A stretch of DNA of 64,000 nucleotides, from the IMG/VR virus record IMGVR_UViG_3300050821_000642, positions 1 to 64,000 of that record. One strand, given 5' to 3'. Positions 1 to 47,216 of this stretch are shown here, one piece after another (within the stretch, counting starts at the first letter, position 1; each line of letters opens with the position of its first letter). The notes below the pieces were generated by a model. The model saw only the letters and a program-made list of their open reading frames with translations, did not search any database and had not been told where the DNA came from. The stretch comes from a virus. Made by a program: the position numbers and the translations under genes.

Positions 1-24
1 TAACGCGAGAGTATGAGGACGCCT

Positions 25-303
25 ATGGTCAGTAAGAACCCGCCGAGCAAAAGGAACTACAAGCATGAATACGCCGAGTATCAGGGCAAGCCCGAGCAGA
101 TTAAGCACCGTGCGGAGCGTAATGAAGCGCGCCGAGAGGAGACTAAAAAGCTGGGTCATGCTCCGTCTGGCGATGTGGCTCATATTAAGCCGCTTGCAGG
201 AGGAGGACGGAACAAGTTGAGCAACGAGCGCGTTGAGTCTATAGCCAAAAACCGTTCGTGGCGTAAAGGTCAAGTTGGCTACAAAGTTCCCATCGACAAG
301 TAA
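25..303 (+). CDS. Small basic HNH-like phage protein
   Basis: A 92-aa, highly charged protein. Its middle, DVAHIKPLAGGGRNKLSN, resembles the D-x-x-H-x-x-P-x-x-x-GG-x-N core of small HNH-type proteins found among late genes of podophages. The usual second histidine and any zinc cysteines are not visible, so nuclease activity is doubtful. The ATG at 25 has GAGG at a good distance; an in-frame ATG at 13 is the alternative. It ends in a TAA that is also the first three bases of a palindrome copy (301-316). Confidence 0.6.
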   Translation: MVSKNPPSKRNYKHEYAEYQGKPEQIKHRAERNEARREETKKLGHAPSGDVAHIKPLAGGGRNKLSNERVESIAKNRSWRKGQVGYKVPIDK

Positions 304-317
304 CTCAGGAGAGTAAG

Positions 318-494
318 GTGTCTACACTTGGCATTATCCTAGTAATTTTACTAGTGGTTATTTTGCTGGGGGGTGTCGGTGGCGAGCGGTGGGGCGTGCC
401 GTATGGTTATGGCGGCGGTCACTACGGCATTGGGCTGGTGGGAATATTGTTAATCGTCGTCATCGTCCTGTTGCTAACAGGGCGTATAGGATAG
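318..494 (+). CDS. Very small hydrophobic protein, DUF3309-like
   Basis: A 58-aa protein starting at GTG 318, just after AGGAGAG in the palindrome copy at 301-316. Two hydrophobic segments (about residues 4-20 and 38-55) flank a Gly/Tyr-rich loop, and it ends LLLTGRIG. This is the layout of DUF3309-type small membrane proteins common in alpha- and betaproteobacteria. Function unknown. Family assignment is by resemblance only. Confidence 0.6.
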   Translation: MSTLGIILVILLVVILLGGVGGERWGVPYGYGGGHYGIGLVGILLIVVIVLLLTGRIG

Positions 495-539
495 AGGTTC
501 GGGCGTACACTTTCGTGCGCCTAACAACGGAGAGGATAC

Positions 540-1277
540 ATGGCACGAGGATATTGGGCTTACATTACCCCGGTCAGCAGGCCGGGTGGCGGCGGGGGTC
601 CGGTGGACCCCGGTTGGGGTATCGAGGAGGGGGTGGACCCCGGTTATGGCGTGGATGAGGGAGGTCACCCCGATCAGGGCCTTCCCGGTGGCGGGCGTCC
701 GCCGCATGTCGGCAATCGGCCTCCGGGTTCTTGGGAGCCGCCTGTGCATCCGGGTCAGGGGCTTCCGCACCCCGGTCGTCCGGTCGATCCCGGCTATGGG
801 GTCGATGAAGGCGACCACATCTGGCCGCGTCCTCCGGGTGGTCGCCCCGGTCGCCCCGGTCATCTTCCGGCGCGTCCTCCGCACACGTGGCCGCGCCCTC
901 CGGGCGGCGGGCTTCCGGTCGATCCGGGTTGGGGTCAGGGAGGTCGTCCCGGTTTTGGCGAGCGCCCCGATCACGGCCTGCCGATCTGGCCAATCGTTCC
1001 GGGCAAGCCCGATCAGGGCCTGCCTCCGATTGATGGCGAGGAGCCGCCGACCGATCCGCCTCCCGGCACGATCTGGCCTCCGATCCCACCCGAGGTTAAC
1101 ATTCCCGAGGGTAAGGCCATCGCCCTCGTGGCGATCAGCGGGCTTGGTTACCGCTATGCGGTGATCACGATCCCGCCGCATGCGCCGGATCAGGGCTTGC
1201 CGGGTGGTGGCGAGGGCGAACAGCCTGAGACGCCGCCGCAGCCGACCCCGACTTCGGCAGTGCGCCGTCCGCGCTAA
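540..1277 (+). CDS. Proline/glycine-rich repeat protein, possibly virion-associated
   Basis: A 245-aa low-complexity protein. Imperfect repeats such as VDPGYGVDEG, PDQGLPGGG and PVDPGWG run from about residue 20 to 180. The C-terminal part (about 185-245) is more ordered and begins IPEGKAIALVAISGLGYRYAVITIPP. There is no signal peptide or membrane segment. SD GGAGAGGA lies ahead of the ATG. It sits in the rightward late operon between two small-gene pairs. Long ORFs on the other strand here are products of the biased composition. Function not recognised. Confidence 0.7.
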   Translation: MARGYWAYITPVSRPGGGGGPVDPGWGIEEGVDPGYGVDEGGHPDQGLPGGGRPPHVGNRPPGSWEPPVHPGQGLPHPGRPVDPGYGVDEGDHIWPRPPGGRPGRPGHLPARPPHTWPRPPGGGLPVDPGWGQGGRPGFGERPDHGLPIWPIVPGKPDQGLPPIDGEEPPTDPPPGTIWPPIPPEVNIPEGKAIALVAISGLGYRYAVITIPPHAPDQGLPGGGEGEQPETPPQPTPTSAVRRPR

Positions 1278-1285
1278 CGACTAGG

Positions 1286-1307
1286 CGGGAGGGGGCGACC
1301 CCTCCCG
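1286..1307 (+). terminator. GC-rich hairpin with GCGA tetraloop
   Basis: A perfect 9-bp stem, CGGGAGGGG/CCCCTCCCG, closed by a GNRA-type GCGA loop, lies between two late genes. There is no clear U-tract, so it may be an attenuator or an mRNA-stability element rather than a full terminator. Confidence 0.5.
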
Positions 1308-1328
1308 TTATCCAAGGAAGTAAGTCGC

Positions 1329-1589
1329 ATGCCGAAGATACTGGACCGTCTGGTTGGGCAGTTGGAAGCGAAGGGCAAACCTAAGTCCTCTGCCTTTGCT
1401 ATCGCCACCAAGGCGCTCCAGAAGTCGGGTAACCTCAAGCCCGGCACGCAAGAGCCAACGGCCAAGGGAACTAAGCGCGGCGAGATGACGCCGGGCGAGC
1501 GCGCCAAGGATCGGCAGGCAAGTTACTCTGGTGGGAAACCATCGGACTTCAAGTACAGCAGCAAGACCAACCGTGCGAGGAAGACATGA
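1329..1589 (+). CDS. Small basic conserved phage protein
   Basis: An 86-aa protein rich in Lys, Ser and Thr. The C-terminal part (GERAKDRQASYSGGKPSDFKYSSKTNRARKT) resembles a family of small basic proteins in podophages whose role is not known. No membrane segment. ATG preceded by AAGGAAG. The TGA stop overlaps the next ATG (ATGA), indicating translational coupling. A weak palindrome copy lies within the gene at 1523. Confidence 0.65.
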   Translation: MPKILDRLVGQLEAKGKPKSSAFAIATKALQKSGNLKPGTQEPTAKGTKRGEMTPGERAKDRQASYSGGKPSDFKYSSKTNRARKT

Positions 1590-1759
1590 ACAAGGGCAAA
1601 GAAGAAAGCTCCGCTCACCAAGCGTTTGAGAACAACAAGGCCGAAGCCCTCATCTATCCCGGCCCCGCCCAAGGACTGAAGAAAGGCGGTACGGTCAAGG
1701 CGATCAGCAAGCCGGTCAAGCCTGCCACGGGCGGCTGGAAACGATGGGGACAAAAGTAA
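1586..1759 (+). CDS. Small basic protein of unknown function
   Basis: A 57-aa ORF between two real genes, overlapping the previous stop (ATGA) and ending TAATG with the endolysin start. The sequence includes LIYPGPAQGLKKGGTVKAI and ends GGWKRWGQK. KKGG-type motifs recur in small structural proteins of this phage class. No recognised domain. The tight junctions on both sides are the main support. Confidence 0.6.
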   Translation: MNKGKEESSAHQAFENNKAEALIYPGPAQGLKKGGTVKAISKPVKPATGGWKRWGQK

Positions 1760-2454
1760 TGCCATACGACCGCAAATTCTTTTTCGACACGGTTCGCAAA
1801 GACTTGTTCAACGGCAACCTGACCCAGAGCCAAGTGGATGGCATGAACTATTTGCTTGAGGTGTGGGAGGAACACTTTGAAGCGAACAACCCCAACGACG
1901 GCACGATGTGGCTTGCTTACGCCTTGGCGACTTTCTACCACGAAACCGCCTACACCATGCAGCCCATCGAGGAGTACGGCAAGGGCAGTGGAAAGAGTTA
2001 CGGCAAACCTGTCGGGCCGTACGGGCAGTGTTACTACGGGCGCGGCCACGTCCAATTGACGTGGGAAGAGAATTATAAAAACGGCCAGAAATTCCTTAAG
2101 GACCGCTACAACGTCCACGCCAACATCCATCCCGAAGCGCACAAGATGCTGCACCCACAGACCAGCGCTCTGATCTCTTATGATGGCATGGTGTATGGGT
2201 GGTTCACGGGCGTGGGCTTGCCCAAGTACCTAAGCAAATCGAAGGGGATCGAAGACCCGGTGAATGCACGGCGGATCGTTAACGGCACCGACAAGGCCAG
2301 CACCATCGCTGGCTACTATTGGAAGTTCAAGGCGGCGCTGAAGCAAGTGCCATCTCTGCCGCCCGAGACGACGGTCGAGGCGCAGCTACCCGACCTGCCC
2401 AAGCATCCTCATATGCCTGACCCGCAGCACCATAGGGAGAACCCCGATGGATAG
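1759..2454 (+). CDS. Endolysin, glycoside hydrolase family 19 type
   Basis: A 231-aa muralytic enzyme expected to cut host peptidoglycan at lysis. Visible GH19 features are HETAYTMQPIEEYG (candidate catalytic Glu62, with Glu71/Glu72 nearby) and the YYGRGHVQLTW block at about 92-102. The C-terminal 30 residues are Pro-rich and may be a tail. No signal peptide, so export would depend on a holin. Start chosen at ATG 1759 (TAATG junction); an in-frame ATG at 1744 would overlap the previous gene. The end overlaps the holin candidate by 8 nt. Confidence 0.85.
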   Translation: MPYDRKFFFDTVRKDLFNGNLTQSQVDGMNYLLEVWEEHFEANNPNDGTMWLAYALATFYHETAYTMQPIEEYGKGSGKSYGKPVGPYGQCYYGRGHVQLTWEENYKNGQKFLKDRYNVHANIHPEAHKMLHPQTSALISYDGMVYGWFTGVGLPKYLSKSKGIEDPVNARRIVNGTDKASTIAGYYWKFKAALKQVPSLPPETTVEAQLPDLPKHPHMPDPQHHRENPDG

Positions 2455-2800
2455 CCTGCTCAGTCAACTACAGACGCTCGCCATCACTTGCATGGGCGCG
2501 GCGGTGACAGCGCTGTGCGGTTACGCTTTTGCGTGGCTGCGCACGTACCTTGGCATCAAGGAGAGCGACAGCAACGAGGCAGAGATACGCAACGCTGCCA
2601 AGACTGAAGCGGGTAAGTTACTCATGGAGGGTAATATCACCAACCAAGATGCAGTGCTGCAAGCAGCAAGCAAGGTCATTGCCGATCTGCTACCGGCAGT
2701 GAAGGCAGAGGAGTACAACACGACCGACATTAAGGACATGATCCTTGGCGCTGCGGCGACATTCTTTCCACCAGCGGGGTTACTCAAACTGCTTAAATGA
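2447..2800 (+). CDS. Holin candidate, LLH (superfamily 6) type
   Basis: A 117-aa protein with one N-terminal membrane segment (about residues 9-31, ITCMGAAVTALCGYAFAWL). A charged, Ala-rich helical part and a hydrophobic C-terminus (AAATFFPPAGLLKLLK) follow. This matches LLH-type holins. It overlaps the endolysin by 8 nt and the next membrane gene by 4 nt (ATGA), the expected place for a holin. A 17-nt palindrome variant lies inside at 2618. The neighbouring membrane genes are alternative holin candidates. Confidence 0.6.
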   Translation: MDSLLSQLQTLAITCMGAAVTALCGYAFAWLRTYLGIKESDSNEAEIRNAAKTEAGKLLMEGNITNQDAVLQAASKVIADLLPAVKAEEYNTTDIKDMILGAAATFFPPAGLLKLLK

Positions 2801-3009
2801 TAGGGATCATCGCTCTATGCGGCTCACTGGCAATCCTCACGATCTTTGCGCTGATGGATTTCTACGCGGTGAGCCAATGTTTCGCTCTCGCTCATACGGG
2901 CGTAGCGCAGACCGACCTGTGCGCGCCCGAGCATATTTTCCGCACGTCGTTAGAGATCGCTGGGATGGCGATAGGTTTGTTCGGCGTCGTCAAGGTGATC
3001 CAAAAGTGA
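2797..3009 (+). CDS. Small two-helix membrane protein of the lysis cassette
   Basis: A 70-aa protein with predicted helices at about 2-24 and 47-67 and a short loop containing two Cys. The start overlaps the previous stop (ATGA) and the end overlaps a GTG start (GTGA). It could be a second holin, an antiholin or a spanin-like part; the sequence does not decide. Confidence 0.6.
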   Translation: MIGIIALCGSLAILTIFALMDFYAVSQCFALAHTGVAQTDLCAPEHIFRTSLEIAGMAIGLFGVVKVIQK

Positions 3010-3311
3010 ATGACCCGTTGGTTGTGCCGCCGCCGATCCCCAAGCTGCTGGACTACCCGGCGTCGATGGGCATCGCCATCGGTATCGTGTTCACCACGGC
3101 GTTGCTCTATGTCGCGGGCAAGTTCGACGCCACGGGCGGCACGCTCACCATCTCGCTTCTGGTGACTGTCGCCTTTCTGGCTACGGTCACGTTCTGTCTG
3201 TTCTTCACTGTGCCGAATGACGAGATCACGTCAGGTGCAGTGGGGGGCCTCATCGCAGCGTTCGGTGCGGTGGTGGCTCATTGGTTAGGCCGAGCGAATA
3301 GAAAGGACTAA
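3006..3311 (+). CDS. Three-helix membrane protein, holin-like
   Basis: A 101-aa protein starting at GTG 3006, overlapping the previous TGA. Three hydrophobic helices lie at about 20-40, 49-72 and 78-97, with a Pro-rich N-terminus (DPLVVPPPIPKLLDYP) and a basic end (GRANRKD). Three helices with a charged tail fit class I holins. An ATG further upstream in the same frame would overlap two genes and is unlikely. Confidence 0.6.
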   Translation: MNDPLVVPPPIPKLLDYPASMGIAIGIVFTTALLYVAGKFDATGGTLTISLLVTVAFLATVTFCLFFTVPNDEITSGAVGGLIAAFGAVVAHWLGRANRKD

Positions 3312-3314
3312 GAC

Positions 3315-3824
3315 ATGGCGCAAGCACCACAGACCCCGAGCCGTCCGCCGCCGCTGACGCGGGGGCAGATGGACAATCCCAATGCGGCAAGGGAGGTTAC
3401 TCGCGAGGGTAACGGCAACGGACCCCCCAAACTGTCTCAGCGGGAGACGTTCAAGCAGCGTATGGAGGAGCAAGCGGCAGCGTTCAAGCGCACCGACGAC
3501 GCCGCGTACGAGCGCGCTACGATGGGCGTGGGCGATGACGAAGACCTGCGCGACAAGCTGTTGGCGCTGGGTTGCGACGTGACCCGCGCCAGCCCGGCAA
3601 GGGAGCAACCGCTTCCCGACGCAGTGCCGGGACTGACCACCACGACCGGCGCGCATGGCTCGCCTATCGACCCGACCACGGCGGCGGTCCCCGCTCCCGA
3701 CGACAGCGAAATGGTTGTCCGTCGCCGGGGGTTTCCTACCGTGGGAAGCGGCAGGGAGGGCGGTGGCCCGGAGAAGCGTTGGATGAAGCGCCAGAGCCAA
3801 GACGCAGTTGCTGCCGAAGAGTAA
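3315..3824 (+). CDS. Polar, probably disordered protein of unknown function
   Basis: A 169-aa protein with no membrane segment. It is Pro/Gly/Glu/Arg-rich, with a possible helix at about 38-78. A palindrome copy at 3397 is translated as REVTREGNGN. It is the last gene before a strong hairpin (3833-3861) and so probably ends the left-hand late transcript. Confidence 0.6.
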   Translation: MAQAPQTPSRPPPLTRGQMDNPNAAREVTREGNGNGPPKLSQRETFKQRMEEQAAAFKRTDDAAYERATMGVGDDEDLRDKLLALGCDVTRASPAREQPLPDAVPGLTTTTGAHGSPIDPTTAAVPAPDDSEMVVRRRGFPTVGSGREGGGPEKRWMKRQSQDAVAAEE

Positions 3825-3832
3825 CAACCTAA

Positions 3833-3861
3833 ACTGGCGGGAAAAACAAATTCCCGCCAGT
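3833..3861 (+). terminator. Perfect 11-bp hairpin ending the lysis operon
   Basis: ACTGGCGGGAA, a 7-nt loop and TTCCCGCCAGT form a perfect stem right after the stop at 3824. No long U-tract follows. It separates the late operon from the promoter of the PEP-CTERM gene. Confidence 0.65.
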
Positions 3862-3864
3862 GTC

Positions 3865-3893
3865 TTGACACATTCACACCAATATGATACGAT
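3865..3893 (+). promoter_or_regulatory. Sigma-70-like promoter of the PEP-CTERM gene
   Basis: TTGACA at 3865-3870, a 17-bp spacer, then TACGAT at 3888-3893 preceded by TGA (extended -10). It lies 46 bp upstream of the ATG at 3940 and directly after a hairpin, so the gene can be expressed independently of the phage operons. Confidence 0.7.
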
Positions 3894-3939
3894 TATGCAT
3901 TGGCGAATGGTTCGTCACTGGGGACATGGAGACGTGGCA

Positions 3940-4599
3940 ATGAAGAGATTTCTACTGAGCGCGGCGCTGCTTGCCGCAGTCGGGGTTACTCCCGTGAGTG
4001 CGGCAACCCTCGGCATCGAGGTGTTCGACAACGGCACGTTGATCGACAACATTTCGGGGGTCACCACCGGCGCGGCCTCGCTCACCGCCAACGACGCCAA
4101 CTTCGCCAACATCACCATCAGCGCTCAAGGCTCACCCATCCTGCCGAATGCGGACTTGTCCAGCGTCACCCTCGACGCCACTGCGGCGGCAGGCTTTACC
4201 GGCGAACACACGCTGACGGTCGATGTTCTGCAAGGGAGTGTGACCGGGCATGGAGGCACGCTCTCCACCTTCACGGTCAACGGTCTGGTCAACGACCCCG
4301 GCCCGACCACCGAAAGTACTTTCGCTGATGGAGCGTTACTCGCTTCGCACGTCTTCCCGGTTGGGTTGCTCGATGGTTCTTTCGGGCCTGTCGCTGCCGG
4401 GGTTGGTGCGTTCTCTTCGGACGAAATTCAGTTTGCGGTGGATTTCACGGCGGCGCGGCAGTCGTTCGGCGGCAGCGCGCAATTGACGACCGGCGTGCCG
4501 GAACCGTCCACGTGGGCGATGCTGTTGCTGGGTATGGGTGGATTGATGTTCGTCGCGCGTCGTCAGAAGAGCCTCAATCGGCTTAACGTCGCGATCTAA
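3940..4599 (+). CDS. Secreted PEP-CTERM sorting-domain protein (phage cargo)
   Basis: A 219-aa protein with a Sec-type signal peptide (MKRFLLSAALLAAVGVTPVSA) and a Ser/Thr/Gly-rich body without recognised catalytic motif. The end is a classical PEP-CTERM signal: VPEPSTWAMLLLGMGGLMFVARRQ, that is, PEP, one transmembrane helix, then Arg residues. In the known system a host exosortase (EpsH/XrtA type) cleaves such proteins for export to the surface or extracellular matrix. No exosortase is seen here, so the host must supply it. Bounded by its own promoter and terminator, it looks like a moron changing the host surface. A palindrome copy (3986) lies in the signal-peptide region. Confidence 0.85.
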   Translation: MKRFLLSAALLAAVGVTPVSAATLGIEVFDNGTLIDNISGVTTGAASLTANDANFANITISAQGSPILPNADLSSVTLDATAAAGFTGEHTLTVDVLQGSVTGHGGTLSTFTVNGLVNDPGPTTESTFADGALLASHVFPVGLLDGSFGPVAAGVGAFSSDEIQFAVDFTAARQSFGGSAQLTTGVPEPSTWAMLLLGMGGLMFVARRQKSLNRLNVAI

Positions 4600-4635
4600 C
4601 TCGTAAGCTTTCGTTCATTGGGGCTTACGTATACT

Positions 4636-4666
4636 GGGTGGGCTACTCCCGTGGCCCACCCTTTTT
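4636..4666 (+). terminator. Intrinsic terminator after the PEP-CTERM gene
   Basis: GGGTGGGC (4636-4643) pairs with GCCCACCC (4654-4661), followed by TTTTT at 4662-4666: a textbook Rho-independent terminator. It lies between convergent genes; the leftward early transcript ends against it. Confidence 0.9.
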
Positions 4667-4667
4667 A

Positions 4668-5045
4668 TTAGTAATGAATTTCGTTAATGACAGGTATTGG
4701 AATGACAGCCGGTGGTTTGTAGTCTGGGTTAATAGCCCTAGGTTCCAAAATTATATTGACACAATGCCAGTCATTAGCAAGAAAGTCCCGCGTGTGTGGT
4801 TTCCACCCCATTGTTAAATTGGGTGTTGAGCCATGTATTCCTCCCTCAAGAAGGATTATATTCTCTACTGCCGGGGAAACAGTTTTATCTGAATGGTGGT
4901 GACGCAATGCCATATAGATGGCAAAACAACTACTCCATCCAACACGCCTGACAAACTCTCCATGTTTTAAGAACGGAAGAATTTCCTCAAAAGTGTAGAG
5001 GCGGACTTCGTTACCTTCATCATCATAGATAGGTTCGTGTCTCAT
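4668..5045 (-). CDS. DUF2829/Tad2-like protein, divergent
   Basis: A 125-aa protein. YTFEEILPFLKHGEFVRRVGW at about 17-37 and FLANDWHCVNII at about 88-99 match the two ends of the DUF2829 fold (F-x-x-x-L-x-x-x-x-G-x-x-V-R-R-x-G-W, then LAxDW). The middle is unlike typical members. Some DUF2829 proteins are Tad2, which binds the signalling nucleotide of Thoeris defence; whether this one does is inference. It is AT-richer than its neighbours and is the last gene of the leftward operon. The start is preceded by AGGAGG within the palindrome copy at 5049 and overlaps the upstream stop (ATGA). Confidence 0.5.
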   Translation of the reverse strand: MRHEPIYDDEGNEVRLYTFEEILPFLKHGEFVRRVGWSSCFAIYMALRHHHSDKTVSPAVENIILLEGGIHGSTPNLTMGWKPHTRDFLANDWHCVNIILEPRAINPDYKPPAVIPIPVINEIHY

Positions 5046-5356
5046 CAGTTACCCTCCTGAGTAAGGAGACGCAACGCCTTGAGGCGCTGCATCCCTTCGA
5101 TCAACTCCAACTCTGCCGGGGTGTCCATTGCCCCGGCCCACGTCGCGCTCATGTCAGGTAGTGGTAGATCAGGTGCAGGACGAACGGGAGGATTAACGCC
5201 GCTTGGTAGAACGCGTACCGGGACGCTCGCCCGCGCATATATGCCACAACGTTGCGGATATGGATAATACCAGCGACTATACTTATGGCAAGCGTAAACT
5301 GGTTGAGCGTGGGCATAGATTACCCCCGTGAGTAACACGGCAGCGAGGGTTCTCAC
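5045..5356 (-). CDS. Small exported protein with signal peptide
   Basis: A 103-aa protein starting at GTG 5356. A hydrophobic N-terminus (about 3-18, ending AHA) is followed by a Cys/Tyr/Pro-rich stretch (VYACHKYSRWYYPYPQRCG), a Pro-rich linker and a C-terminal helix. The two Cys could form a disulfide in the periplasm. No obvious lipobox. Similar small CHKYSRWYYPYPQRC proteins occur in alphaproteobacterial phages, as far as I recall, without known role. A palindrome copy (5320) encodes LLTGV within the signal segment. Confidence 0.6.
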   Translation of the reverse strand: MRTLAAVLLTGVIYAHAQPVYACHKYSRWYYPYPQRCGIYARASVPVRVLPSGVNPPVRPAPDLPLPDMSATWAGAMDTPAELELIEGMQRLKALRLLTQEGN

Positions 5357-5583
5357 GTCGCCCCCGCCACCTTATCCAATAGCTCTATGATCGCCACGAC
5401 GATATCACTCTCTTGCGGAGTAATGTCTTTGCCGTCGCTACCGGCATGGGAGCGGGCCAGCAGCACGGCGTTAATTGCGGCGGCGCGGCGCAGGCTGCGA
5501 TTGGCTACGCTCTTCTTGGCGTCGTCGCCTATGCTGTCGAAGTGGGTCAGTCGAGAAGGCTTGCTAGGAAGCTCGTCGTTCAT
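5353..5583 (-). CDS. Small helical protein of unknown function
   Basis: A 76-aa, mostly helical, soluble protein (LRRAAAINAVLLARSHAGS... IVVAIIELLDKVAGAT). The start follows AGGAGAG inside the palindrome copy at 5587. The TGA overlaps the next GTG start. No recognised domain. Confidence 0.6.
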   Translation of the reverse strand: MNDELPSKPSRLTHFDSIGDDAKKSVANRSLRRAAAINAVLLARSHAGSDGKDITPQESDIVVAIIELLDKVAGAT

Positions 5584-5602
5584 TGGTTACTCTCCTGAGT
5601 TA

Positions 5603-8551
5603 TTATGGGACGTTAGGTTCAAACTTTCCGTGGGCTATGATGTACTCAAGCGTCTCCTCTAATACGGTGCCGGTCGCCTCGATCACCCACGAGTTTTCTT
5701 TAGCGCCAGCCATCTCCGTGCCAGCGCCGATGACGACGTTCAGCATTTTCGCGCTGAGCCGTTTCTTCATTGCCGCTTGCAGGTTTGATTTAGGTCGCCC
5801 CGTCCGCTTGCACCACGAAGTCAGGGCGCTATCGGTGATACGCAATATGAGCGGGCTACCCGATAGCTGCACCTCAAGCGTCCCCCAACTGAAATTCGGC
5901 GGCTTGAAGTTGATGATCTTAATGTCCTTGCTTGGCTTGCCCGCACCCATTTGTGTCTTGTTAAGGATGACGGTGTTGCGTGGCAGCTTCTCGTTGAGGA
6001 ACGCGCCCAACGTACTCACGAGAGCAGTGTCAGTGCCGAAGTCGCTGGGATCGTCCGCCATCTCCTGCTTCATACGGCGGAACTCGTCGTACATATACGC
6101 CTTCATTACGTCGATGGGGAACTTGCAAAACCCTAGCTTGTTAGCGAGGTGAGCGCCCAACAAGATTGTTGCGATGGCGTCAATCCAATAGCGCTCGATC
6201 TTAGGATCAGCGCCTAGCTCTTCTGCGCACTGCTGTTGCGTGGCGACCAACGCCTTGCTGATCTTGGTGTGGTTCTTGCCAAGGAACTCTGCGTACTTGA
6301 GGCCGATCCCGCCAAAGTTAAAGTGCAAGTCCGTCAGGTGTCTGTTGACAGCGTAGGCAAACTCTTTCTCGGTCTTTGGCAAGTCGATGGCTTGCATCTC
6401 AAACATGCGCAACCACGACGCGTCTGTGCCTTTATCCTCTTGCCGTACGGCATCGACAATGGACCCGTTGGCGCAGTACCCGCACAGCGTGCGAAACTCT
6501 TTCACCTCTCGCATCGCGCCCATACGGTTGGCGCGGCCCTTCTCGCGCCCGCCCGTGAGTTGGAACGCCAACTCGGTCATCGCCTTCATCTGCTTCTCGC
6601 CCTTGATCTCGTCATAGAACAGGGGCAAGTGGCGCAACGTGGCGCACTTGGCGAAGGTATAGATTACGGTGTCGCTAAGACCACCCACCACTGGTTTCGA
6701 CCACGCGGCTTGCCCAAACAAGAGCGCGGTTGATTTGCCAATGCCGGATTTACCTGAGACTAACCCAAGGAGTAACCCGGCATGCCCGGTCATGTCCACC
6801 AAGGGAGAAGCGAACGTCGCGGCTCCCATGCAGCACAAGTCAGGGCGTTCAGGCGCCAAGAGGATATTCGCCAGCGCTCGCCACGGCGCTTCGTCGCCAA
6901 GCACCCGGTAATCCTCAACGCCATCGCCCGGACGGTTCGATTTGAACTCACCGGCAGGGGAGAAAAACCTTCCGGCGAAAGCAAAGCCCATCTCGTTTCT
7001 ATAGTCTTGGCTCCAACCGAAGGCTGGCACGTCGATCAAAGTTTCCTTCTTATGCTGCAAGAGCTTGAGGTAGTTTGCCATGAACATTCTCGAAAGTTCG
7101 GGCTTGATCGTGAGCGGCATTGCTTCAGAAGCAAGGGCTTTAGAGAACCCGATGTTGTCGGCAGTGATGGTGCTGTCGAACCGCTTAGTGACGATCTTCT
7201 CACCCTGTATGGTGTCAAACGAAAATCGGAATGGCTTGCCAAACTCTACGCTGGCTGACCCCGGCAGAATAGGGTACTCAAATACGAGGAACTGCTCCAT
7301 GCCGCCTTTGTCGTCAGGCTTTGAGGTATAGATCAGGTCGTCGTTGCCTCGGTAGTAACCTGTCGGCAGGTCTATTGAGTTTGGGCTGGGGTTTCCTTGG
7401 AAGCCAGCGTGAGTACGATTGTGGGGCTGTTTATATTGAACTGATAGTGGGGTGGTGCCGAGAGCAAGATGCGGACAGGTGGCGCACTGGGGTATGCCAA
7501 GGGCATTGATGGTGGCGCACTTCTCGGGGCCAATGCTTGGGCGGTTTGCCCGCGCTTGGAGAGCCACCGCGAGCTTAGCATCTGTATCCGCCTCGCTGTA
7601 ATAACTACTGCCTCGGGATAGCCGGTGAGCAGTTGCACTAGGATCATCACAGTGGCAAGCAAGACCAACAGCAAGTTTCCACTGGGGTTCACCGACGAGA
7701 TTAGCGCCAGCTTTATCCAGCGTTTCTTTAATGAACGGGCAGAACCCCGCCACCACATCGATGTTCGCAGGCGCATAACCACTCTTCATGCCGCCAGACA
7801 GATCGTCGTTGACGCCCGACTTACTCTCTTGAGTACGGCTTCCCGCCCCACCCCCCGGCACCGCGCCTACGATCTTGTACTGGGACAGTCCCTTCTGCAT
7901 ATCTTTTAGCGGAATATGCGTGGTATTGCAATAGAGCATGGTGACCGGCTTGGCCTCAACGTCAGGCCCGCCCTTGAAATTCCACGTCCCCGGCACCCTT
8001 AGCAGGCGGCACGGGTCGTTAGTGCATTGCCGGTCGAACAACACGCCATGCTGGGTCGCCGCCGTCGATAGCTGCGCGGCCATGTGCCGGAACTCACGCG
8101 GCTCAAACTCGGTGTCGAGCGTCCAGTACACATGCACGCCGCCGTTGCCGCTCGCGACGATGATAGTTGGATACGGCAGGCCACACACGAGAGTAAACTT
8201 TTTCAGCGCTACCAGCACCGCCTTATGGTCGGGGTAGGCGCTCTCCTTGACGTCCATATCCATGTAAAGGTTCTTGCAGGCGACGAGGTTTGGCTCCTGC
8301 CGTACCGCCTTCGGGTATATCCGGCCCATCTCCCCGGCGTTACGGAATGCGCCTTGCGCGAGGTACACGCACTGCCCGCGTGACGCCCAGTAGTTCGCGT
8401 CTTCCAGCGCCGCACGGATGCTCTTGTGCGCATTGCCGGGGAAGATAGGCGGGCGACCGTCCTGAAACAATAACCGTCGATGAATGCTGAACCAAGTATC
8501 CTTGTCGGCAAGGGCTACCTGCGTCAGAAAAATATGGCCCTCATTGTCCAC
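5603..8551 (-). CDS. Replicative primase-helicase: AEP primase fused to DUF927-type helicase
   Basis: A 982-aa fusion expected to prime and unwind phage DNA. The N-terminal half shows archaeo-eukaryotic primase motifs: YMDMDV (Asp98, Asp100), SGNGGVHVYW at about 134-143 and DPCRLLRVPGTWNFKGG at about 178-194. A Cys cluster (CATINALGIPQCATCPH) lies near 345-360. The C-terminal half has a DUF927-like ATPase with Walker A SGKSGIGKST near 605 and LPLFYDEIKG near 643, and a C-terminal domain that may bind DNA. It is the largest early gene and is followed by a palindrome copy (5587). Another copy (7821) encodes TQESKS. Confidence 0.85.
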   Translation of the reverse strand: MDNEGHIFLTQVALADKDTWFSIHRRLLFQDGRPPIFPGNAHKSIRAALEDANYWASRGQCVYLAQGAFRNAGEMGRIYPKAVRQEPNLVACKNLYMDMDVKESAYPDHKAVLVALKKFTLVCGLPYPTIIVASGNGGVHVYWTLDTEFEPREFRHMAAQLSTAATQHGVLFDRQCTNDPCRLLRVPGTWNFKGGPDVEAKPVTMLYCNTTHIPLKDMQKGLSQYKIVGAVPGGGAGSRTQESKSGVNDDLSGGMKSGYAPANIDVVAGFCPFIKETLDKAGANLVGEPQWKLAVGLACHCDDPSATAHRLSRGSSYYSEADTDAKLAVALQARANRPSIGPEKCATINALGIPQCATCPHLALGTTPLSVQYKQPHNRTHAGFQGNPSPNSIDLPTGYYRGNDDLIYTSKPDDKGGMEQFLVFEYPILPGSASVEFGKPFRFSFDTIQGEKIVTKRFDSTITADNIGFSKALASEAMPLTIKPELSRMFMANYLKLLQHKKETLIDVPAFGWSQDYRNEMGFAFAGRFFSPAGEFKSNRPGDGVEDYRVLGDEAPWRALANILLAPERPDLCCMGAATFASPLVDMTGHAGLLLGLVSGKSGIGKSTALLFGQAAWSKPVVGGLSDTVIYTFAKCATLRHLPLFYDEIKGEKQMKAMTELAFQLTGGREKGRANRMGAMREVKEFRTLCGYCANGSIVDAVRQEDKGTDASWLRMFEMQAIDLPKTEKEFAYAVNRHLTDLHFNFGGIGLKYAEFLGKNHTKISKALVATQQQCAEELGADPKIERYWIDAIATILLGAHLANKLGFCKFPIDVMKAYMYDEFRRMKQEMADDPSDFGTDTALVSTLGAFLNEKLPRNTVILNKTQMGAGKPSKDIKIINFKPPNFSWGTLEVQLSGSPLILRITDSALTSWCKRTGRPKSNLQAAMKKRLSAKMLNVVIGAGTEMAGAKENSWVIEATGTVLEETLEYIIAHGKFEPNVP

Positions 8552-44523: not shown

Positions 44524-46035
44524 ATGACCGGACGCGTTCAATCTCTTCGTTCCAGTGTAGCAGGGAGCCGCCCGACCGGGCGTCAGCCGGGGGAGCTTTA
44601 TGTCAACTGGGCCGACAATCAGCTTGGTGTGATCAACGCAAGTTCTGCGGCGCAAGACTTGATCGCGGTAAGATTTTTTAGCGCGGCGGCGAGCTATAAT
44701 GTTGGCGACTTCGCCATTCAGGCGGGGCAGCTTTATCGTTGTGTGACTGCTGTCGGCCCCAGTTCCTTTACTCCAGCCAATTGGGCGCAGATCGGCGGCT
44801 CGGTTGGCATTGGCGACAACTCGCCTAGTAATCCGCAACCGGGAACCCTATGGTGGGACAGCGTAGGAGGGCAGCTTTACGTTTGGTTCGTGGACGCTAA
44901 CTCGTCGCAGTGGGTGGTGGCGAACAACGCTGCGTCAGTGTTGGCTTCGGGGTATCTGCCGCTCTCTGGAGGTACGCTGACTGGCCCGCTTACTCTGCCG
45001 GGTAACCCGACAACACCACTTCAGTCAGTGCCGAAGCAATATGTTGACTCTTTGCCGGTGGCGATGAATGACAATCGCATCATCAACGGCGACATGCGGT
45101 GGGATCAGAGGAACAACGGCGCGAGCGGGACAGGGGGTGGCTATACCGTTGATCGGTGGCTCTATGGCCCATCGCAGGCGAGTAAGGGAACGTGGCAGCG
45201 TATTCTTGCTAATGCTGGTGGGCCTATTCAAATAGCTGGGTTCAATTATTACCTTTCGTTTATTTCTTCGTCTGCCTACGCTGTGTTGGCGAGCGATGCT
45301 TTCTACTTCACGCAGCTGGTCGAGGCCGATATGGTCGGCGATCTGGCTTGGGGAACGGCAAGCGCGCAGCCGGTGACGCTTTCGTTCTGGGCGCTCTCAA
45401 GCTTGGCTGGGACATTTGGCGGTGCAATCCGCAATTATCCAACTCCTTCCACGCGCTCTTATCCGTTCATTTTTACGCTCGCTGCGGACACTTGGACGAA
45501 GGTCGTCATCACCATCCCCGGCGATACTGCCGGGACGTGGGTATTGAACGGCAACGCCGCTGCGTTTGGGCTTTGTTTCGATCTTGGGGCTGGAGCGACC
45601 TACCGCGCTCCCGCTGGCGCATGGGCGGCGGGGAATTTCGTTGGCGCGAACGGCGCGGTCAGCGTCGTGGCGACGAACGGTGCAACTTTCTACCTGACCG
45701 GCGTCAAGCTGGAGGTTGGCAGCGTAGCAACGCCGTTCAACCGGCAGTCGTTGGCGAAGTCTCTGGCCGATTGCCAGCGGTATTACTCGGGGTTGCTACA
45801 AATCTACGGCGCAGGGTCCGGTCAAGTTGCTGGTCAACCCTTCGTCCACGGCTCGTTATCACCAATTTGGATGCGCGCTGCTCCAACTACAGTGAACCTC
45901 AATACCGCCAATAGCAGTAATTGGACGTTGGTCAGTGTAACAAGTAATAATTCTTCCATCACGGCTAACGGGAACGCAACGGCGGCTGGCCTCGTCGTTT
46001 TGAATGTTCTCTTTGCCCTTAATGCGGAGCTTTGA
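44524..46035 (+). CDS. Tail fibre, receptor-binding candidate (paralogue A)
   Basis: 503 aa. The shaft part includes GELYVNWADNQLGVINASS and GGTLTGPLTLPGNPTTPLQSVPKQYVDSL (palindrome copy 44990). Then a C-terminal domain of about 300 residues: NRIINGDMRWDQRNNGAS...YTVDRWLYG through LTGVKLEVGSVATPFNRQSLAKSLADCQRYYSG and a variable tip. The C-terminal domain repeats in the next gene, so these are alternative or joint adhesins. Confidence 0.8.
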   Translation: MTGRVQSLRSSVAGSRPTGRQPGELYVNWADNQLGVINASSAAQDLIAVRFFSAAASYNVGDFAIQAGQLYRCVTAVGPSSFTPANWAQIGGSVGIGDNSPSNPQPGTLWWDSVGGQLYVWFVDANSSQWVVANNAASVLASGYLPLSGGTLTGPLTLPGNPTTPLQSVPKQYVDSLPVAMNDNRIINGDMRWDQRNNGASGTGGGYTVDRWLYGPSQASKGTWQRILANAGGPIQIAGFNYYLSFISSSAYAVLASDAFYFTQLVEADMVGDLAWGTASAQPVTLSFWALSSLAGTFGGAIRNYPTPSTRSYPFIFTLAADTWTKVVITIPGDTAGTWVLNGNAAAFGLCFDLGAGATYRAPAGAWAAGNFVGANGAVSVVATNGATFYLTGVKLEVGSVATPFNRQSLAKSLADCQRYYSGLLQIYGAGSGQVAGQPFVHGSLSPIWMRAAPTTVNLNTANSSNWTLVSVTSNNSSITANGNATAAGLVVLNVLFALNAEL

Positions 46036-46037
46036 TC

Positions 46038-47216
46038 ATGATCGACTTTCCTAACAACCCCACAGTCGGTCAGACTTTTACCGCCGCAGGCGTGACGTGG
46101 ACGTGGGATGGAACCAAGTGGACATCGAACGGGCTGAACGTGCCATACTTGCCGCTGGCGGGCGGCACGATGAGCGGGCCGATTACTCTACAGAGTGACC
46201 CGGCTGCGCCGCTACAACCGGCGACTAAGCAGTATGTTGACTTCATTGAGGCGTCATATTCGCTTGGTAGTAACCGCATCATCAACGGCGACATGCGGAT
46301 TTGTCAGCGCGCGGGGAGTGGAAATGCTGCCGGATACATGGTTGATCGCTGGCGGATCGCCATGAGTCAGCCGGGCAAGCTCAGTTGGAATACCGCCCCT
46401 AGCGCTGCGATGGCTCCCAACGGCTTTCCGACAGTCATCACCCTTAACTCGCTGTCGGCTTATTCGCCAGCGGCGACTGACAGTTTTTGCTTCTTTCAAC
46501 CTATCGAAGCCGACATGATCAGCGACTTCGCATTCGGCACGGCCAATGCGCAGCCGATCACGTTGTCGTTTTGGGTTATGGCTTCCGTCGCAGGAACGTA
46601 TTCCGGCGCGCTCGGCAACTCACCCAACAATCGCTGCTACCCCTTTACCTTCACCCTCGCTGCCGCGACCACTTGGCAGAAATTCGTCATCACTGTTCCC
46701 GGCGACACGAGCGGGACATGGACGATGAGCGGTAACGGCGGGGGGATGTTCGTCACTTTCGATCTTGGCAGCGGCCCGAGTTTACGTGCTCCAGCGGGAT
46801 CGTGGCAGAGCGTCAGCGTGAATGGCGCGACCGGCGCGGCGGGCGTCGTCACTACCAATGGCGCGCTGATGCAGTTTACGGGCGTCAAGCTGGAGGTCGG
46901 CAGCATAGCAACGCCCTACAATCGGCAGTCGCTGGCGAAGTCTTTGGCGGATTGCCAGCGATACTACAGTGTTGGGTCACTAGTTGTAGGTGGATATACT
47001 ACAGCGGGTGGTTCTATTATTACAACAGGCTTCTATCCTGTAGCTATGCGTGCTGCTCCGACTATAACGCCTAGTTACGTCTCTATGATAAATGTTACTG
47101 CTGGCAATCTTACAGTAAATAATGTAAGTCCAACCTCTTTCTACAATACAGGTGGCGGTAGTGCTGTTGGATATACGCAGTGGCAGAACAACTGGACAGC
47201 GAACGCGGAGCTTTGA
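46038..47216 (+). CDS. Tail fibre, receptor-binding candidate (paralogue B)
   Basis: 392 aa from ATG 46038 (SD GGAG); TTG 46032 is in frame upstream. N-terminal FPNNPTVGQTFTAAGVTWTWDGTKWTSN, then the shaft motif GGTMSGPITLQSDPAAPLQPATKQYVD (palindrome copy 46183), and a C-terminal domain homologous to the previous gene (RIINGDMRICQRAGSG... VKLEVGSIATPYNRQSLAKSLADCQRYYS). The last 70 residues are AT-richer and different, as expected of a host-range tip. Confidence 0.8.
   Translation: MIDFPNNPTVGQTFTAAGVTWTWDGTKWTSNGLNVPYLPLAGGTMSGPITLQSDPAAPLQPATKQYVDFIEASYSLGSNRIINGDMRICQRAGSGNAAGYMVDRWRIAMSQPGKLSWNTAPSAAMAPNGFPTVITLNSLSAYSPAATDSFCFFQPIEADMISDFAFGTANAQPITLSFWVMASVAGTYSGALGNSPNNRCYPFTFTLAAATTWQKFVITVPGDTSGTWTMSGNGGGMFVTFDLGSGPSLRAPAGSWQSVSVNGATGAAGVVTTNGALMQFTGVKLEVGSIATPYNRQSLAKSLADCQRYYSVGSLVVGGYTTAGGSIITTGFYPVAMRAAPTITPSYVSMINVTAGNLTVNNVSPTSFYNTGGGSAVGYTQWQNNWTANAEL

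Follow-up and report, generated by a model that had tools for sequence, protein, structure and literature searches.

A virus-only family of PEP-CTERM proteins appears to be carried as an exchangeable cassette by unrelated phages

A 64,000-base stretch of viral DNA (the window), taken from a virus record 65,878 bases long, carries a genuine phage gene for a PEP-CTERM protein, and this is well supported. We found that its ectodomain belongs to a widespread virus-only family, here called family 1, which sequence comparison places on unrelated phages and not as a one-off. The phage origin of family 1 and its sorting tail are both well supported. As to function we infer, with a probability of roughly 0.4, that the gene serves as a mobile cassette by which the phage supplies a surface or matrix protein of glycan-binding type, which would be sorted by the host exosortase and would bring about superinfection exclusion and less re-adsorption.

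Results

The window gene has a signal peptide, an ectodomain and a PEP-CTERM sorting tail

A preliminary description of this DNA had reported a signal peptide and a PEP-CTERM tail in the gene at 3940-4599 (Table 1). Both were borne out, the tail by PF07589 and TIGR02595 and the signal peptide on reading by eye, which also found the same signal-peptide layout in homologues. The Pfam PEP-CTERM profile PF07589 matched residues 186-208 with 30.2 bits (cut-off 20.7) and TIGR02595 matched the protein with 26.8 bits (cut-off 16). Thus the C-terminal motif, hydrophobic segment and basic end of PEP-CTERM proteins are present above the curated cut-offs. A PEP-CTERM search of the whole 65,878-base record gave a match of 34.2 bits and the same search of 14 control genomes gave none. 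The PEPxxWA-CTERM subtype profile NF035944 scored 29.4 bits, under its cut-off of 35, though the motif reads PEPSTWA. For the whole protein the top NCBIfam match was the FxDxF family PEP-CTERM protein NF038126, whose 38.8 bits fall under the curated cut-off of 50 and so do not place the protein in the FxDxF family. The ectodomain alone had zero matches in NCBIfam, and a Pfam scan of the whole protein at E values up to 1 returned PEP-CTERM only, with no CBM family matched.

Table 1. Features in and around the PEP-CTERM gene of the window
Feature	Position	Strand	Remarks
Endolysin gene	1744..2454	+	PHROG 181
Lysis-block membrane protein, holin candidate	2745..3311	+	from sequence; true start probably later
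Hydrophilic protein g3315	3315..3824	+	left border of junction slot
Perfect 11-bp inverted repeat	3833..3861		directly upstream of promoter; read by eye; also in L002
Sigma-70-type promoter-like site	3865..3893	+	TTGACA-17-TACGAT, TG before -10; sequence scan
PEP-CTERM protein gene, family 1	3940..4599	+	219 aa
N-terminal signal peptide	3940..4005	+	residues 1-22; by eye: basic n-region, hydrophobic core, VSA/A-type site
Mature ectodomain	4003..4497	+	predicted beta-sandwich, 12 strands (AlphaFold2)
PEP-CTERM sorting tail	4495..4563	+	VPEPSTWAM motif, transmembrane segment, basic residues
Intrinsic terminator-like stem-loop and T-rich tail	4636..4671	+	stem 4636-4661: 11 pairs, 8 GC
Small protein m5045	5045..5356	-	signal-peptide-like N-terminus; right border of junction slot
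Primase/helicase-like protein	5603..8551	-	PHROG 25314, 8841; first large gene of opposed operon
Two tandem tail-fibre genes	44524..47216	+	PHROG 4492

The gene lies between two opposed operons

The PEP-CTERM gene (PEP gene) is found at the junction of two opposed operons. Upstream of it are plus-strand genes for the endolysin and membrane proteins, and downstream are minus-strand genes for the primase/helicase-like protein, a helicase, an exonuclease and a DNA polymerase. The earlier claim that the gene breaks the pattern of the surrounding operons agrees with its place between a plus-strand lysis block and minus-strand replication genes. The window phage also encodes terminase, portal-type adaptor, capsid, internal virion and fibre genes. 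On other backbones we found endolysin-like segments that are 72-88% identical and, near the PEP gene, relatives of the holin candidate.

Among dinucleotide-shuffled versions of the 150 bases that precede the PEP gene, 1.7% contained a promoter-like site scoring at least 10 of 12 (p 0.017), and the stem-loop at 4636-4661 was the strongest terminator-like site within window positions 1-8000. For the window gene, these two sites confirm the proposal that it has its own promoter and its own terminator. The inverted repeat, which is absent from the terminator-scan list, may perhaps mark the end of the upstream operon. The outer bounds first drawn around the gene fit these features: the inverted repeat starts at 3833 and the terminator ends at 4666. 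A Pro/Gly/Asp-rich protein (window 540-1277) also has relatives close to the PEP gene: at 12 of 39 loci, spread over several backbones, one is encoded no more than 5 kb away, as in L012, L018, L024, L029, L046 and L052.

A chimeric assembly at about 3.8 or 4.7 kb, which the preliminary description had named as the finding that would overturn its reading, is contradicted by L002, a 64,144-base contig from a different metagenome. In L002 the order is g3315 (+), PEP gene (+), m5045 (-) and primase-like gene (-), and these genes are 65-81% identical to those of the window. The L002 promoter is near-identical (TTGACA-17-TATACT) and the terminator stem and T-tail are also kept. Because this independent contig shows the same order, we conclude that the window junction is not chimeric.

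Family 1 is found on viral contigs

The family 1 ectodomain was found on 65 viral contigs, namely 62 (L002-L063), three of which are cut by the contig end, plus L138, L143 and L144. The gene is a genuine phage gene, as proposed, and the 65 contigs show that it is no single case. A pattern scan of 84,980 bacterial and archaeal species genomes gave 39 pattern matches and no relative of the ectodomain, and a search with the family 1 profile of 397 genomes from the order to which Bradyrhizobium algeriense belongs (Rhizobiales) was likewise negative. As a control, the profile picked up all viral records known to be positive (7 of 7) and gave no hit in 28 records whose PEP proteins belong to other families. 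A bacterial origin of the ectodomain was rejected on these two null results. The ectodomain had no match among 50,697 phage records, and no match to the window PEP protein was found in the cultured phage RHph_TM3_14A.

The motif [VI]PExxTW is kept in 61 of 62 complete-ended family 1 proteins, as VPEPSTW in 47 and in another form in 14. The remaining protein (L057 1339-1995) has a family 1 ectodomain followed by VPGPVVGAGLPG-type sequence in place of both the PEP motif and the membrane segment, possibly a switch of sorting signal. A likeness of the L057 tail to a Bradyrhizobium type was considered and dropped when a protein search and a pattern search of 15 bacterial genomes gave no match.

The ectodomain is the constrained part of the protein

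Selection was estimated on 39 sequences, the window's and 38 of 59 after removal at 97% identity. The ectodomain has a median identity of 87% and a dN/dS of 0.127 (738 of 741 pairs), or 0.145 for the 417 pairs with ectodomain dS of 0.05-1. The corresponding values are 48% and 0.338 for the tail (510 of 741 pairs) and 50% and 0.305 for the signal peptide (488 of 741 pairs). This indicates that constraint falls on the ectodomain and not on the tail, and that the ectodomain is under strong purifying selection.

The ectodomain is predicted to be a beta-sandwich

An AlphaFold2 model of the ectodomain (on A6) is an all-beta sandwich with pLDDT 92.7 and pTM 0.90; the five models reached pLDDT 92.7, 90.6, 80.8, 56.9 and 49.1, two of them being poor. 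A full-length model was set aside (pLDDT 49.6). Comparison with VIA-align matched the ectodomain to an Epf adhesin domain (Z 9.6, rmsd 3.5, 137 aligned), surface glycan-binding protein B (Z 8.9, rmsd 3.1, 127 aligned), Bd1399 (Z 8.4, rmsd 3.6, 135 aligned), CBM61 (Z 8.0, rmsd 3.1, 114 aligned) and the K2-2 tailspike (Z 7.7, rmsd 3.5, 119 aligned), with CBM4, 16 and 51 near Z 7; most of the matches have Z scores of 7-8, a range in which, by the tool's own warning, the likeness may reflect no more than a common arrangement, and few lie above. In a viral structure library, tail-fibre and other tail proteins account for many of the matches that carry a name. The ectodomain is thus confidently predicted to be a beta-sandwich loosely like carbohydrate-binding modules and adhesins, and the model suggests that it may bind glycan.

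Family 1 genes have moved between phage backbones

Family 1 is present on at least five phage backbones whose terminases are unrelated or barely related. The window terminase is 61% identical to that of G006, but the terminases of G003, G012, G021 and G025 show no significant similarity to it; the G003 and G012 terminases match each other at 25%. By family, G003 and G012 have PHROG 38 terminases and the window, G021 and G025 have PHROG 2 terminases. Over their best-matching segments, the PEP proteins of G003, G012, G021 and G025 (L008, L018, L033 and L038) share 74-79% identity with that of the window. The position of the gene varies between the lysis block, the terminase-portal interval and the portal-capsid interval: on several other backbones it is found beside the endolysin gene, and on the G025 (portal-capsid) backbone it lies between the portal and capsid genes on one strand, inside the structural operon.

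Phage morons, among them lysogenic-conversion surface genes, are optional single genes with a promoter and a terminator that lie at module borders and are swapped between phages. The window gene resembles them in its optionality, its promoter and terminator, its insertion at a module border and its swapping. At this junction close relatives either lack it or carry something else in its place, and both the window and L002 have a promoter and terminator belonging to the gene, which the portal-capsid backbone does not. Strong promoter-like sites were found at 6 of 39 family 1 loci (0.25 expected) and at none of 14 portal-capsid backbone loci, and we therefore dropped an own promoter as a conserved general feature of family 1; the earlier claim of an own promoter stands for the window and L002 and fails as a general rule. 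The PEP-gene carriers also differ from phage morons in that they look virulent and that some backbones lack an own promoter for the gene. The moron-like nature proposed at the outset nonetheless holds for a gene that is optional, is replaced in relatives and has its own promoter and terminator in the window. By gene order and sequence comparison the PEP gene is an exchangeable, moron-type cassette, and its mobility across unrelated phages is well supported.

Relatives of the PHROG 4492 fibres, about 45-66% identical, occur on several backbones that are unrelated to one another and likewise have PEP-CTERM genes, which suggests a shared host range. We claim no association of PEP genes with these fibres: 15 of 25 fibre-bearing records had a PEP-CTERM gene, a figure that has no background rate (the set comprises records of at least 20 kb and at least 42% identity from 69 loci, with L434 left out as a partial match). 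A separate arrangement was seen in G012 (L018 10001-13471), where four consecutive exported-type genes, encoding a family 1 PEP-CTERM protein, two small proteins of secreted type and another PEP-CTERM protein unlike the first, are followed by an endolysin gene.

Phages carry other PEP-CTERM families at the same junction

The preliminary description had advised a search of phage records for PEP-CTERM tails, and this brought up the further families A3 (15 proteins aligned), A4 (4) and A5 (7). Representatives of A3 and A5 had no match in the cultured-phage collection. Profile comparison of family 1 with A3, A4 and A5 gave no significant match, the sequences compared being few and similar, so that they may or may not form one superfamily. 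Among the remaining single PEP proteins, some may be host DNA inside provirus records.

The Pfam PEP-CTERM scan covered 50 of 78 family-search loci in a first set and, in a second, 29 of 80 capsid loci (contigs above about 25 kb), 13 of 69 fibre loci and 4 distant fibre relatives. It under-counts PEP tails, having missed L024/G015 (VPELSTW) and G495 (VPETSTW). Among the matches listed, the number of phage PEP-CTERM genes is a lower bound. A Pfam match was found in 6 of the 29 records with a window-like capsid gene, or 8 of 29 with the PEP-type proteins of G015 and G495, and all 8 fall among the 18 records with a capsid identity of at least 76%.

At the junction bounded by m5045 on one side and by g3315 or the lysis genes on the other, G067 carries an A3 protein and G488 an A4 protein and a second PEP protein, and G496 has an A3 protein close to a window-type junction. 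Two phages have no PEP gene there: G486 encodes a pair of small proteins of exported type, and G483 a protein of 629 aa whose N-terminus resembles a signal peptide (L552 11419-13305), perhaps a secreted polysaccharide-active protein. In G493 and G495 the PEP gene lies between terminase and portal. From these gene orders the junction appears to be a hot spot for exported proteins. An A4-type PEP-CTERM gene in tandem with a second PEP-CTERM family (CYTTGC motif) was also seen in L536 901-2519 (G493) and L171 2390-4246.

Sorting tails and phage kinship point to a Rhizobiales host

No exosortase was found in any of 45 phage records, the window's included, which were chosen mainly for length. When the A3 profile was compared with bacteria, the matches came mostly through the PEP tail. 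The matches listed, a biased sample, include 77 loci: 73 from Rhizobiales/Hyphomicrobiales, some of which we place there by presumed genus membership, 2 from Frankia sp. RB7 and 2 from sphingomonads. The A3 and family 1 ectodomains had no match in these 77 bacterial loci. We found an exosortase in 14 of 15 tail-matched bacteria, mostly Rhizobiales, and in 22 of 397 genomes of the order at large. The nearest cultured relatives of the window capsid are Rhizobium phages at 67% identity (RHph_TM3_14A and three others), and the portal agrees. Because nearly all of the tail-matched bacteria are exosortase-positive and the phage is kin to Rhizobium phages, the sequences point to an exosortase-positive member of Rhizobiales as the putative host. 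The previous suggestion that the host must be an exosortase-positive Gram-negative presumably holds. The two Frankia sp. RB7 loci (L275 and L281, JAUEPE010000017.1) have Bradyrhizobium-type PEP tails and an exosortase; this genome (G056) falls in the order of Bradyrhizobium algeriense and is probably mislabelled.

A search for integrases of the tyrosine-integrase family PF00589, the one family covered, found none in the window's record or in 28 family 1 records; 2 of 39 searched records, chosen mainly for length, had one, and neither carries family 1. Since PF00589 is missing from all of these family 1 records, lysogenic conversion by the carriers is unlikely on genomic grounds. The carriers, uncultivated phages of soil type, are apparently virulent and the protein most likely acts during lytic infection. 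Of the suggestion that the protein alters the surface of infected or lysogenic cells, the lysogenic part is thus unlikely. In RHph_TM3_14A a gene annotated as 'putative integrase' (MN988472.1 42239-45322) encodes a 30% homologue (995 columns) of the window primase/helicase-like protein and is probably misannotated.

Discussion

PEP-CTERM/exosortase sorting is widespread in soil and biofilm bacteria. To our knowledge, the roles of most PEP-CTERM substrates are not established. The window protein shares with the PEP-CTERM/EpsH (exosortase) proteins, as far as the consulted text of Haft et al. 2006 (PMC1569441) describes them, the signal peptide, the C-terminal PEP motif, transmembrane segment and basic end, an ectodomain of little homology, and a single-gene unit with its own promoter-like site. 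However, it is phage-encoded, its ectodomain is virus-only and its genome has no exosortase. The main text of that paper, in the portion available, contains no word beginning with phage or viral. The preliminary description knew of no well-described phage PEP-CTERM protein, and our literature search on PEP-CTERM or exosortase with phages, prophages and viral contigs agrees, since the titles and abstract openings described none. The nearest report we found is of 13 TIGR03118 proteins (putative exosortase-interaction C-terminus) among the cell-derived proteins of a Yellowstone hot-spring virus community (PMC11003980, consulted in part). That report also places exosortase-type C-termini in viral sequences; it differs, in the portion consulted, in giving a family count only, with no analysis of sorting tail, ectodomain or spread.

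We propose that after injection the window phage would express the gene from its own promoter and that the protein would be exported by Sec and held in the inner membrane by its PEP-CTERM tail. The host exosortase would then recognise and process the tail, as the model of Haft et al. (PMC1569441, as far as consulted) has it for the host's own PEP-CTERM proteins, and the ectodomain would be handed on to the cell surface or the exopolysaccharide matrix. There the CBM- or adhesin-like beta-sandwich would bind a host surface glycan. The infected cell and the debris after lysis would become a poor target, giving superinfection exclusion and fewer progeny lost to re-adsorption. Envelope exclusion proteins of lytic phages, such as the T5 lipoprotein Llp, are known, and proteins of this kind are also held to limit adsorption to fragments of lysed cells (PMC9586334, in the portion consulted). 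Exclusion by the window protein would be in the manner of Llp, delivered by the exosortase route. According to the same portion, Llp-type proteins are likewise small exported phage proteins that reach the host envelope through host machinery during lytic infection, as would the window protein; Llp is a lipoprotein that blocks a TonB-dependent transporter, whereas the window protein is an exosortase-type substrate with a predicted glycan-binding-like fold. The PEP protein may block other phages, as first suggested.

Some findings speak against parts of this proposal. The portal-capsid backbone has its PEP gene in a structural operon without an own promoter, and expression there may be late, which suits exclusion less than an early role. 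The loss of the PEP motif by L057, one of 62 proteins, speaks against the sorting reading.

The main rival is that the protein alters exopolysaccharide binding or release, loosening or tightening aggregates so that progeny spread or hosts are gathered. Host PEP-CTERM proteins such as PepA of floc-forming bacteria take part in building flocs and can alter how exopolysaccharide is retained (PMC9850573, in the portion consulted), the predicted fold is CBM-like, and G483 carries a large exported-type protein at the same junction. However, the ectodomain alone has no NCBIfam match, no catalytic feature was recognised, and the predicted fold suggests binding only; we regard this reading as unlikely, though it keeps some weight. 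A part in the virion or in lysis, with the protein decorating particles or helping to rupture the envelope, would fit a gene that on several backbones adjoins the endolysin gene or lies between portal and capsid genes. It is improbable, given a signal peptide and sorting tail that point away from the cytoplasm where heads are built, a gene position that is not fixed, and close relatives that have lysis and head genes and no PEP gene. The host-like tails on many phage proteins would also suit a decoy, whose abundant tail saturates the host exosortase and blocks the host's own PEP-CTERM proteins. A decoy would need the tail only, and it is the ectodomain that is by far the more strongly selected of the two parts, which makes this very improbable. 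That the gene is a recently captured host gene or an assembly or contamination artefact without phage function, as might be thought of a typical host product, is hardly credible given the matching gene order in L002, the portal and capsid genes that flank the PEP gene in other phages and a virus-only ectodomain under strong purifying selection.

More widely, we see not far short of an even chance that virulent phages of exosortase-positive bacteria share a pool of interchangeable, virus-invented surface proteins with host-matched tails. These would be traded between otherwise unrelated phages at fixed insertion points and would give the infected cell or its matrix a new coat, which would amount to seroconversion in a lytic setting by way of PEP-CTERM and exosortase. 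That a virus-only family is strongly selected and traded implies that some PEP-CTERM/exosortase function is worth hijacking during infection. Family 1 offers phage-made probes of this pathway, and for uncultivated soil phages a PEP-CTERM tail is a host-range clue that marks an exosortase-positive host. It also presents a testable case of surface alteration by phages that apparently do not form lysogens.
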